A stretch of DNA of 64,000 nt. It comes from Phycisphaeraceae bacterium (lineage in GTDB: Bacteria; Planctomycetota; Phycisphaerae; Phycisphaerales; Zrk34). Position numbers and translations under genes: made by a program. The notes beneath the pieces were generated by a model. That model saw only the letters and a program-made list of their open reading frames with translations, ran no database searches and was not told the origin of the DNA. The stretch spans positions 1 through 64,000 of the forward strand of contig JANQHD010000038.1 of assembly GCA_028282805.1 (NCBI GenBank). Direction: 5' to 3'. Positions 16,448-31,432 of this stretch are shown here, piece after piece (position 1 is the first letter of the stretch; every line of letters begins with the position of its first letter).

Positions 16448-16451
16448 GAAA

Positions 16452-16545
16452 GGCATCAGGCAAGAGGCAACAGCCAACAGGCGTCAGGTAGGGTTTGCCC
16501 TGATGCCTGTTGCCTGATGCCTGTTGCCTGTTGGCTGATACCTGT
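16452..16545. repeat. Palindromic heptamer array (GGCAWCA family)
   Basis: The stretch between the permease stop and the kinase gene reads as back-to-back 7-bp units: GGCATCA, GGCAAGA, GGCAACA and variants on the left. Their reverse complements (TGATGCC, TGTTGCC) are on the right after a short centre near 16490-16498. The whole can fold into one long imperfect hairpin. No gene content. Confidence 0.85.
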
Positions 16546-17724: not shown

Positions 17725-17786
17725 GTCGGGTTCCGGGTCTCGGGTGCCGGGTTCCGAGACCCGAACCCCGAGCCCCGGAACCCGAC
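17725..17786. repeat. Palindromic heptamer array (GGGTTCC family)
   Basis: Eight consecutive 7-bp units. Four of GGGTTCC type are followed by four of the complementary GAACCCC/GAGCCCC type, bounded by GTCGGG and CCCGAC. It starts two bases after the kinase stop and fills most of the gap to the methyltransferase start. Confidence 0.88.
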
Positions 17787-18568: not shown

Positions 18569-18647
18569 CGGGTTCCGGCTTTCGGGGATACGATCCCGAG
18601 CCCCGAGCCCCGAGCCCCGAGCCCCGAGCCCCGAGCCCCGAGCCCCG
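18569..18647. repeat. Heptamer array with seven exact GAGCCCC copies
   Basis: A degenerate left arm (GGGTTCC, GGCTTTC, GGGGATA from 18569) is followed by seven identical GAGCCCC units at 18598-18646. It belongs to the same sequence family as the array at 17725-17786 and shows recent expansion of one unit. Confidence 0.9.
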
Positions 18648-21291: not shown

Positions 21292-22167
21292 TCACACCGC
21301 GTCAGCCAACACGATGAACTGCGCCAACGAGAGCTGTTCGGGCCGCGCCGCGGGGTCGATGTCGGCGGGGTAATCGACGCCGCCGCCCAACACCGCGCGG
21401 ATCGTCTTGCGCCGCTGCTGGAAGAGTTTTTGCGCGAGTTCGACCACCCGCTCGGGGCAAGCCGCTTGCGGCTTAGCGCGCCTTGTCAACTTCACCACCG
21501 ACGAATCAACCTGCGGCCGGGGCCAGAAGCACGCCGGCGGCAGGTGCGTGACGAGTTCGGTCTCACACATCAGCTGCACGCTGATCGACAACGGCCCGTA
21601 GTCCTTGCCGCCCTGCGCCATGAACCGATCGGCGACCTCACGCTGCACCATGACGATCGCCAGGCTCATCGCCGGGTGATCGAGGCAAAGGTTCGCGACC
21701 AACGGCGAGGCGATGTTGTAAGGAAGGTTGGCGATGAGCTTGAATTGCGGAATGCGGATTTCGGATTGCGGAGTCGCCTGTTCGGGTAACTCCGCATTCC
21801 GCATTCCGCACTCCGCATTCGCGATCGCTTTAGCGATCGCCGGGTTGACCGCGTGCTTGCCGGCCATGGCGTCGCCTTCGACGAGCGTAAAGTTTTCGTG
21901 GTCGCCGAAGCGCTCGCGCAGGATCGCGCAGAGGTCGCGGTCGATCTCGCACGCCACGACGCGCGCCCCGGCTTCGAGCAACCAGTCGGTCAGCGCACCG
22001 GTGCCCGGGCCGACCTCAAGCACGGTATCACCCGCTTGCAGGTCCGCCGCGTCGAGGATCTGCCGCATCTTGTTGTGATCGACGAGGAAGTTCTGCCCGA
22101 ACCGCTTACGCGGCCGCAACCCGTGCGCGGCGAGAAGGCTTTTGATGTCGGAGAGAGACTGGGCCAT
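21292..22167 (-). CDS. rsmA: 16S rRNA dimethyladenosine transferase RsmA (KsgA) with in-frame repeat insert
   Basis: 291 aa. Canonical motifs are RKRFGQNFLVD near 21, the SAM motif VLEVGPGTGALT near 49 and the catalytic NLPYNIASPL near 147. It dimethylates two adjacent adenines near the 3' end of 16S rRNA. Just before NLPYN there is an unusual segment of about 25 residues (NAECGMRNAELPEQ...) encoded exactly by a palindromic heptamer array at 21745-21820. Ordinary RsmA goes directly from the acidic motif to F-K-x-x-x-NLPYN here. The frame stays open and all catalytic motifs survive, so the protein is probably functional with a surface loop. Confidence 0.93.
   Translation of the reverse strand: MAQSLSDIKSLLAAHGLRPRKRFGQNFLVDHNKMRQILDAADLQAGDTVLEVGPGTGALTDWLLEAGARVVACEIDRDLCAILRERFGDHENFTLVEGDAMAGKHAVNPAIAKAIANAECGMRNAELPEQATPQSEIRIPQFKLIANLPYNIASPLVANLCLDHPAMSLAIVMVQREVADRFMAQGGKDYGPLSISVQLMCETELVTHLPPACFWPRPQVDSSVVKLTRRAKPQAACPERVVELAQKLFQQRRKTIRAVLGGGVDYPADIDPAARPEQLSLAQFIVLADAV
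21745..21820. repeat. Palindromic heptamer array inside rsmA (TTGCGGA/TCCGCAT family)
   Basis: Four units of TTGCGGA type (21745 onward) and four of TCCGCAT type (up to about 21820) flank an 18-bp centre. It has the same architecture as the intergenic arrays but lies in the coding region of rsmA without breaking the frame. Confidence 0.9.
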
Positions 22168-22180
22168 CGCATTGAATCAA

Positions 22181-22228
22181 CGGGTCAATCGGTTAATCGG
22201 TCAACTAGTCAACCGGTCAATCGGGCGT
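22181..22228. repeat. Octamer array left of the four-helix-bundle gene
   Basis: Units of CGGTCAAT type (CGGTTAAT, CGGTCAAC, TAGTCAAC, CGGTCAAT) repeat every 8 bases. The array overlaps and supplies the stop codon of the four-helix-bundle gene at 22217-22219. It lies directly upstream of the rsmA start on the other side. Confidence 0.85.
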
Positions 22229-22639
22229 TCGTCGTGGGGGTTTCGTTTTGCTCCGACGTTTGTCGGCCATGTATTCGTCGAGTTGCTTATGCAGGTGGTT
22301 GACGTAACCGTTGAGCAGGCGCAAGACCTCGTCGATGTCGCGCCGGAGGTTTTGAAGGTGCTCCGGCTTGAAGTAACCTTGCTGCTCACAGGCGCCCAGG
22401 TCATCGATCAACTCATTCAGGCTCCCGCGCGACCGGTAGAGGTACGAGATGTTGTGCTTCCAGTTATAGCTGCCGTGCCCCTCGGCGATGTTGTTGGTCA
22501 CCGAGAGCGCCGCCCGCCTCATCTGCTGGTTCAGCACGTACTTCTCGTCCACCGGCAACCGCTCGACCAGTTTGTAAACACGTTGCCTCAGCTCGCACGC
22601 CTTCTGATAAACCTCCAACCCTTCAAATCCCTCAGCCAT
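22217..22639 (-). CDS. Four-helix-bundle protein (S23 / 23S rRNA intervening-sequence type)
   Basis: 140 aa from the ATG at 22639. Family signatures are FEGLEVYQKACEL at the start, LNQQMRRAALSVTNNIAEG near 40-58 and a late RGSLNEL. These proteins were first found encoded in intervening sequences of 23S rRNA. Relatives (Avd-like) bind nucleic acid and assist diversity-generating retroelements, but most have no known role. The C-terminus is Lys/Arg-rich (DKRRSKTKPPRR). The gene is bracketed by two octamer arrays in opposite orientation and its stop codon is part of one, suggesting a cassette. Confidence 0.88.
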   Translation of the reverse strand: MAEGFEGLEVYQKACELRQRVYKLVERLPVDEKYVLNQQMRRAALSVTNNIAEGHGSYNWKHNISYLYRSRGSLNELIDDLGACEQQGYFKPEHLQNLRRDIDEVLRLLNGYVNHLHKQLDEYMADKRRSKTKPPRRTPD

Positions 22640-22661
22640 ACAGCACCCCGTACTATGTCCT

Positions 22662-22709
22662 GTTTGACCGATCAACTGATTGACCAATTGACTGGTCGAC
22701 CGATTCACA
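22662..22709. repeat. Octamer array right of the four-helix-bundle gene (inverted)
   Basis: Units of ATTGACCG type (TTTGACCG, ATTGACCA, ATTGACTG, GTCGACCG) repeat every 8 bases. This is the reverse complement orientation of the array at 22181-22228, so the two form an inverted pair around the gene. The fabI stop (22705-22707) lies at its right edge. Confidence 0.85.
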
Positions 22710-25896: not shown

Positions 25897-27271
25897 TCCG
25901 TCGTCGGGCGAGCAGCAGGGGGCTGGCGAGTGCGATCAGCGCGAGGGCGGTCGGTTCGGGGATCGTCCAGATCGCGATACCGGATCGACCGTCGGCCAGC
26001 CCGAATTGATAGGCGACCTGCCCCAACTCGTTGAGGCCGTTTCGTTCGTCGCCGAGTACATTGCCATTGGAAAAGTCCAGCGCCGTGATCGTGCTGCCGA
26101 GCAGGGCGTCGCCCTTGCGCGCCACCTGGATCAGGCCGAGCCCGTCGTCGTAGAAGAAGAGGCCACGATCGTCGCTGGTCCCGGTCAAGACACCAAAAAA
26201 TGCCGCCTGCCCCGCGTCGTTGAGTGCGGGGGGGTCGGCGAAGCCGGAGAAGCTGCCGTTGGCGTCTGGCGCGGCGTCGCCTTTGCGGACGATCTGCACC
26301 AGCGTCGCGCCGTCGCCCCGGAAGAGGCCGGCATCATCGCTGCCCCCGCCGCTGGTCCCGGTCAAGCTACCCCAAAACGCGGCCTGCCCCGCGTTGTTGA
26401 GCGTGGGGTCGGAGAAGAGTAAGAAATTACCGTTGGCGTCGGGCGCAGCTTCGCCTTCGCGGGCGATCCGCGTCAGCGTCGCGCCGTCGCCCCAAAAGAT
26501 GCCGCGATCGTCGCTGCCCCCGCCGCTGGTTCCGGTCAAGGAACCTGAAAACGCCACCTGCCCCGCGTCGTTGAGCGCGGGGGAGTTGAAGCTGGAGAAG
26601 TTGCCGTTGGCGTCTGGCGCGGCATCGCCTTCGCGAACGATCTGTACCAGCGTCGTGCCGTCGCCCCGGAAGATGCCGCGATCATCGCTGTTCCCGCCGC
26701 TGGTCCGGGTCAAGAAACTCAGAAACGCCGCCTGCCCCGCGTCGTTGAACGCGGGGATGACGAGGCTGGAGAAGCTGCCGTTGGCGTCTGGCGCGGCTTC
26801 GCCTTTGCGGACGATCTGCACCAGCGTTGTGCCGTCGCCCCGGAAGATGCCGCTACTATCACTGATCCCGACCCTGCTCCCGGTCAAGAAACCCACGAAC
26901 GTCGCCTGCCCCGCATTGTTGAGCACGGGGAAGGTGAAGTTTAAGAAGCTGCCGTTGGCGTCTGGCGCGGCGTCGCCTTCGCGGGCGATCTGCACCAGCG
27001 TTGTGCCGTCGCCCCGAAAGATGCCGATATCGTCGCTGCCCCCGCCGCTGGTGCCGGTCAGGTTAGCGAGAAACGCGGCCTGCCCCGCGTCGTTGAGCGC
27101 GGGGGGGTCGGCGAAGCGGAAGAAGCTGCCGTTGGCGTCTGGCGCGGCGTCGCCCGTCTGCACAACAACCTGCGTGGTTCCCACGGCCCACGACGAAGAC
27201 ACCCAGACCAACAACGACGGCGCGACCGTGCCGCACAACACCACCCGTACCGATCGAACGAAAGACAGCAT
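25892..27271 (-). CDS. PEP-CTERM protein built of NxxGxxAF tandem repeats
   Basis: 459 aa. Start at the ATG at 27271, preceded by AGGAGAG. After a signal peptide the protein consists of six near-identical units of about 55 residues, each with APDANG, then LNDAGQAAF and later SDDRGIFRGDG. It ends with a degenerate seventh unit (LNELGQVAY) and the sorting tail IPEPTALALIALASPLLLARRR. This is the choice-of-anchor NxxGxxAF family with an exosortase signal. Repeats are also highly similar as DNA (period about 165 bp at 26200-27150), so copy number may vary. It is probably a surface protein. Confidence 0.88.
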   Translation of the reverse strand: MLSFVRSVRVVLCGTVAPSLLVWVSSSWAVGTTQVVVQTGDAAPDANGSFFRFADPPALNDAGQAAFLANLTGTSGGGSDDIGIFRGDGTTLVQIAREGDAAPDANGSFLNFTFPVLNNAGQATFVGFLTGSRVGISDSSGIFRGDGTTLVQIVRKGEAAPDANGSFSSLVIPAFNDAGQAAFLSFLTRTSGGNSDDRGIFRGDGTTLVQIVREGDAAPDANGNFSSFNSPALNDAGQVAFSGSLTGTSGGGSDDRGIFWGDGATLTRIAREGEAAPDANGNFLLFSDPTLNNAGQAAFWGSLTGTSGGGSDDAGLFRGDGATLVQIVRKGDAAPDANGSFSGFADPPALNDAGQAAFFGVLTGTSDDRGLFFYDDGLGLIQVARKGDALLGSTITALDFSNGNVLGDERNGLNELGQVAYQFGLADGRSGIAIWTIPEPTALALIALASPLLLARRRN

Positions 27272-31380: not shown

Positions 31381-31432
31381 CCCCCGCCCCCGGAACCCGC
31401 CCCCGGAACCCGGAACCCGGAACCCGATACCC
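31381..31432. repeat. Heptamer array (GGAACCC family)
   Basis: GGAACCC units at 31392, 31405, 31412 and 31419, with GATACCC at 31426, preceded by C-rich degenerate units. Same sequence family as the right arm of the array at 17725-17786. It starts right after the small-RNA terminator. Confidence 0.8.

Follow-up and report, generated by a model that had tools for sequence, protein, structure and literature searches.

Unrelated repeats at one loop of the 16S rRNA dimethyltransferase RsmA: a probable recurrent acceptor site in a planctomycete order

The rsmA (ksgA) gene studied here contained a palindrome built of heptamers, and in the alignment of rsmA genes across the order the same codons held at least six unrelated repeats. 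It is very probable that this loop of RsmA is a recurrent acceptor site, which behaves like intergenic DNA inside a gene because the same codons took unrelated repeats in other lineages. Such a recurrent landing place was beyond the reach of an earlier reading made from the single sequence (the sequence-only reading), which had described the array and its position. The window, which is the whole stretch of DNA analysed, comprises 64,000 nucleotides of the source genome (G000, 3.9 Mb). The other G-numbers denote relatives, many of which are probably metagenome assemblies.

The product of the gene (Table 1) scored 186 bits against PF00398 and matched KsgA chains in the PDB at an E-value of 9e-62 (with the family profile). 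The RrnaAD domain, motif I EVGPGTG and motif IV NLPYN were present and were kept in the alignments. The gene was assigned by its sequence to RsmA/KsgA, and dimethylation of two adenines of helix 45 is predicted. RsmA/KsgA is conserved, yet E. coli can do without it, and the earlier designation of the gene as essential-type was overstated.

Table 1. Features of the rsmA gene in the window, and repeats found at the corresponding loop of its relatives.
Feature	Position in window	Strand	Description	Basis
rsmA (ksgA)	21292-22167	-	16S rRNA adenine dimethyltransferase, 291 aa	one ORF
Whole array	21744-21820	+	palindrome built of heptamers, 77 bp	
Left arm	21744-21774	+	units TGCGGAA/TGCGGAT/TTCGGAT/TGCGGAG	inverted-repeat search, Tandem Repeats Finder
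Spacer	21775-21788	+	14 nt	
Right arm	21789-21820	+	TCCGCAT units	inverted-repeat search, Tandem Repeats Finder
Translated insert	21745-21822	-	ANAECGMRNAELPEQATPQSEIRIPQ, residues 116-141, in place of short GDRP-type turn	alignment, AlphaFold
Catalytic motif IV	21715-21729	-	NLPYN, intact	sequence, alignments
Short duplication	21821-21840	+	GCGATCGC...GCGATCGC, 9-nt arms, directly adjoins array	
G000 rsmA loop			ATGCGGA heptamers	
G057 rsmA loop			CAAGCCT heptamers	
G129, G108, G159, G069 (genus g51) rsmA loop			CCATCCC, CGATCCG or CCCAATC heptamers	
G060 rsmA loop			82-bp REP-like palindrome	
G090 rsmA loop			REPIN-like doublet, two inverted hairpins	
G085 (third family) rsmA loop			another REP-type palindrome	

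The inverted-repeat search gave arms of 29 nt each (21746-21774 and 21789-21817) that were 86% complementary on either side of the 14-nt spacer, and Tandem Repeats Finder reported period 7 in both of them. Lag-7 scores of 18 and 12.5 also showed tandem 7-nt units beyond chance. As single-stranded DNA the array folded at -29.1 kcal/mol, against -15.6 for shuffled sequences (z -6.05). The peptide ANAECGMRNAELPEQATPQSEIRIPQ immediately preceded FKLIANLPYN, no stop codon occurred across the array, and the frame and the catalytic motifs were intact, in agreement with the sequence-only reading, which had placed an in-frame palindromic array of 76 bp just before NLPYN. The duplication of GCGATCGC beside the array is possibly a scar of the event or due to chance. 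Other repeats also occur in the window. A PF05635 gene (23S-rRNA-intervening-sequence/bAvd-like four-helix-bundle) at 22217-22708 adjoins rsmA and is bracketed by period-8 arrays TCAACCGG/TCAATCGG at 22177-22224 and 22660-22704, and a 174-bp unit is present in 5.6 tandem copies with 81% matches at 26173-27154.

An alignment of RsmA from close relatives had been proposed to date the insertion, and the same-genus genome G001 was found to have a short loop, reading AIGDRPFKLIANLPY at the site where G000 reads AIANAECGMRNAELPEQATPQSEIRIPQFKLIANLPY; this indicates that the insert is recent. The distance between the KH motif and NLPY was 17 residues in G001 and 39 in G000, a net gain of 22 residues or 66 nt, and because the array itself measures 77 bp, roughly 11 nt of the former turn were lost or absorbed. 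Among 56 rsmA genes from two families, the KH motif-NLPY distance showed a tight mode at 16-18 residues and a tail of longer loops, counted from motif to motif with the motif missed in about 10 genes, while lengths taken from BLAST gaps depend on gap placement. No insert was present in G001, G003, G072, G141 and others. The alignments indicate that the ancestral loop is the short one, 16-18 aa with a GDRP-type turn. About 12 rsmA genes had long loops without a recognised repeat, which could reflect either decayed inserts or normal variation of the loop.

The array belongs to a family dispersed through the G000 genome. The 13-mer TCCGCATTCCGCA had 25 exact matches there and none in the reversed control. 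At 12 of the 13 separate places checked it was intergenic, usually touching a stop codon or immediately preceding a start codon, and rsmA was the sole place inside a gene. In a 464-kb sample (400 kb of the G000 genome plus the window), 32 period-7 arrays were detected versus 0.75 for control lags, and 25 of them lay between genes, in a sample that is about 88% coding. The rsmA array nevertheless has company in coding DNA. MtnA has a heptamer array in its C-terminal tail, and NhaA (G000:C47:163684-163717) has an in-frame ACTCAAG array in a variable long loop that follows membrane helix 1. NhaA was rejected as a second recurrent site, since its relatives carry a different loop, rich in His and Asp and free of heptamers. 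The UppP array (G000:C50:55670) was rejected as coding, as a later ATG fits the usual N-terminus and the array probably lies upstream of the gene. In a 400-kb sample of G057, 18 heptamer arrays were intergenic, 3 lay at gene edges and 3 at protein ends; these last three were not accepted as true inserts, since all are at N- or C-termini and could stem from misplaced start sites or be tails. Other intergenic heptamer arrays of the window are located at 16451-16545 (AGGCAAC/CCTGTTG palindrome), 17726-17783 (CGGGTTC), 18595-18647 (CCCGAGC x7.6) and 31389-31432 (CCCGGAA).

The order of variant units gave information on the origin of the rsmA copy. The order TGCGGA-N-TGCGGA-N-TTCGGA-N-TGCGGA was found exactly at rsmA and at only two other places, C50:38251 and C50:82454, both intergenic, and with one mismatch at C47:202294. 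The copy at C50:38251 also had the GTAACTCCGCATTCCGCATTCCGCACTC side in common with the rsmA array, while spacers varied between copies of the palindrome. The common unit order points to copies of one ancestral palindrome and not to independent growth. Neither a transposase nor a target duplication was linked to the heptamer palindromes of G000, and the one Y1-transposase neighbourhood scanned in that genome (L294) held no heptamer array.

Repeats at the same loop of several other genomes (Table 1) were likewise dispersed. The unit CAAGCCYCAAGCC of G057 had 27 matches in its own genome, the arm GAGCCGCGACCGT of G060 had 52 (about 26 palindromes, one in rsmA), the hairpin CCCTCACCCCGGCCCTCTCCC of G090 had 9, and a 28-mer of G085 had 50, one of them inside rsmA at C8:26519; reversed controls gave 0 in all four. 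The unit of G129 was weaker, with 6 matches in its own genome, 3 of these in rsmA itself. Together with G000 these are the genomes in which dispersal was searched, and in at least seven genomes besides G000 the unrelated loop DNA was a repeat, dispersed wherever checked. Within genus g51, the rsmA gene of G072 was empty while those of G129, G108, G159 and G069 were filled. A tree built without the loop showed filled and empty genes alternating with at least 6 changes (a quick tree with many weak branches), including the filled/empty sister pairs G000/G001, G060/G029 and G090/G141 and neighbours in three genera. All 7 period-7 arrays in the 56 rsmA genes fell at alignment positions 114-123 of 272, whereas codon shuffling gave a mean of 0.5 arrays and a maximum of 3 (300 trials). 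Three of the four strong inverted repeats in these genes also lay at positions 114-123. The order-wide survey covered rsmA alone, so that the concentration at this site is relative to the rest of rsmA; the scan of contigs from other genomes consisted mostly of distant phyla beyond the first 16 loci. We found no report of repeats at this rsmA site in the open-access literature. A weak inverted repeat was seen elsewhere in the rsmA gene of G147. The valyl-tRNA synthetase gene of G001 (L298, G001:C173:1-2574) carries an insertion of about 240 residues that keeps the frame and has no stop codon; this insertion contains a Y1 (RAYT-like) transposase domain and is flanked by GAGCCGCGACCGT palindromes of the G060 rsmA repeat family.

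Structure modelling, also proposed earlier, supported a surface loop. The AlphaFold model of G000 RsmA had a mean pLDDT of 94.5, with 63-66 in the blocks covering residues 121-140 and 92-98 elsewhere. These low-confidence residues lie between helix 109-120 and strand 142-147, and the loop is predicted to be disordered and on the surface. It should face away from the active site, since NLPY is at the far end of strand 142-147. As regards the DNA, a stop-free heptamer array is stop-free in all three frames, which makes such arrays well suited to the loop, and because 69% of all heptamers qualify, arrays would enter coding DNA easily, total length permitting. The claim that the array is tolerated in coding DNA stands as far as can be told from sequence: the reading frame is unbroken, disorder is predicted for the loop and a close relative has no insert.

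We consider it very probable that the 77-bp palindrome is a copy from the heptamer-palindrome family, which is mainly intergenic in G000. It would have entered rsmA after the split from G001, in the stretch that connects helix 109-120 to the strand with NLPYN at its end. Being stop-free and a multiple of three, the insert would leave a working enzyme, as may be expected for a predicted disordered surface loop opposite the active site, and its insertion would have been neutral. Other lineages would have received their own unrelated repeats at the same codons. These are most likely selfish or neutral repeats in a permissive loop, resembling Rickettsia palindromic elements but converging on one site.

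The sequence-only reading had left open whether the arrays are mobile or arise de novo. It is possible, though rather unlikely, that the array grew in place from a chance repeat in a fast-evolving loop, by slippage in steps of seven, with template switching producing the second arm. Many bacteria have an excess of heptamers, for which polymerase slippage is a proposed cause (PMC4692102, PMC4679880), and the g51 arrays differ in their units yet have common flanks, which suggests rapid local turnover. However, the variant-unit order and part of the spacer common to rsmA, C50:38251 and C47:202294 would not be expected from independent growth, and the inserts of G060, G090 and G085 are complete dispersed palindromes and not slippage products; these facts argue against growth in place. 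A further possibility, which we hold to be improbable, is that the site is a phase-variable switch at which gain or loss of a heptamer toggles RsmA and thereby also the dimethylation of 16S rRNA and the sensitivity to kasugamycin. The rsmA gene of G069 (L202, G069:C16:68163-68991) is frameshifted exactly at its heptamer array and split into two frames, both halves are 82-83% identical to G072, and the insert adds 19 nt relative to G072, so that one heptamer fewer (+12) would be in frame. A phase-variable gene would have this appearance, but it is a single case in a draft assembly without reads, where an assembly error is possible, and all other repeat inserts seen are in frame; moreover, the arrays are imperfect as well as short, and the site is shared with repeats that are not heptamers. 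If a slippage-driven on/off switch of rsmA did operate in several lineages, which seems equally improbable, clonal populations would be heterogeneous in 16S rRNA dimethylation, translation accuracy and kasugamycin response.

The position itself might instead attract insertion as a DNA target of REP-type (Y1/HUH) transposases used by unrelated repeats. Y1 transposases were present in all 10 genomes checked, and in G001 one such gene is flanked by a palindrome of the G060 type. We regard such a target as very improbable: the heptamer arrays, REP and REPIN-like elements have no evident common target sequence, the flanking DNA is ordinary coding sequence, and tolerance alone accounts for the concentration within rsmA. 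To the view that the insert is an old conserved loop of planctomycete RsmA that merely looks repetitive we give almost no credence. Many relatives do have loops that exceed the mode, with unrelated DNA, and the same loop with unrelated sequence in many relatives is what the sequence-only reading had named as evidence against itself. But the inserts are unlike in sequence and correspond to repeats dispersed in the genomes that carry them, and the ancestral short loop, together with repeats in at least seven other genomes, indicates that the longer loop is not conserved; the view is refuted by the same-genus and within-genus comparisons. Recurrent acceptance of copied repeats by a permissive loop remains the best explanation.

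In-frame insertion of repeats into genes is known mainly from Rickettsia, where it is spread over many genes. Here one small loop of a universal enzyme would have taken, in independent events, heptamer arrays, REP-like palindromes and a REPIN-like doublet. The empty sister genes beside filled ones offer a natural replicate experiment in the conversion of selfish or slippage-born DNA into protein sequence, and RsmA function and kasugamycin provide a ready assay for the neutrality of the inserts.

Among known systems, the Rickettsia palindromic elements (RPEs) and other protein-coding palindromes (Wolbachia, M. jannaschii; PMC10969869, PMC2996958) are similar in that the rsmA insert is a short dispersed palindrome, in frame in a conserved housekeeping gene, at an unstructured position and with the protein predicted to be left usable. 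RPEs, however, are about 150 bp, each encode a conserved peptide and occur in many different genes, whereas the rsmA repeats are mutually unrelated, lie mostly between genes and converge on a single loop of a single gene, and the heptamer period is not a multiple of three. Membership of a known RPE family is unlikely given the period-7 structure and the differing peptides. Heptameric simple sequence repeats and STRR-type arrays (Xanthomonas, Nostoc, Beggiatoaceae TAACTGA; PMC4692102, PMC4679880) share the period of 7 and the mostly intergenic location near stop or start codons, and have occasional gene copies, usually near protein ends, as here; unlike them, the two arms here form a long palindrome and one copy falls midway along a conserved enzyme. 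REP sequences and REPINs with RAYT transposases (PMC3116915, PMC3733652) resemble the inserts of G060, G085 and G090, which are dispersed palindromes (an inverted doublet in G090), and Y1 transposase genes are present, in G000 with the L294 flank free of arrays and in G001 with the G060-type association. REPs and REPINs are defined as extragenic, whereas the repeats described here are translated inside rsmA in G000, G060, G085 and G090.
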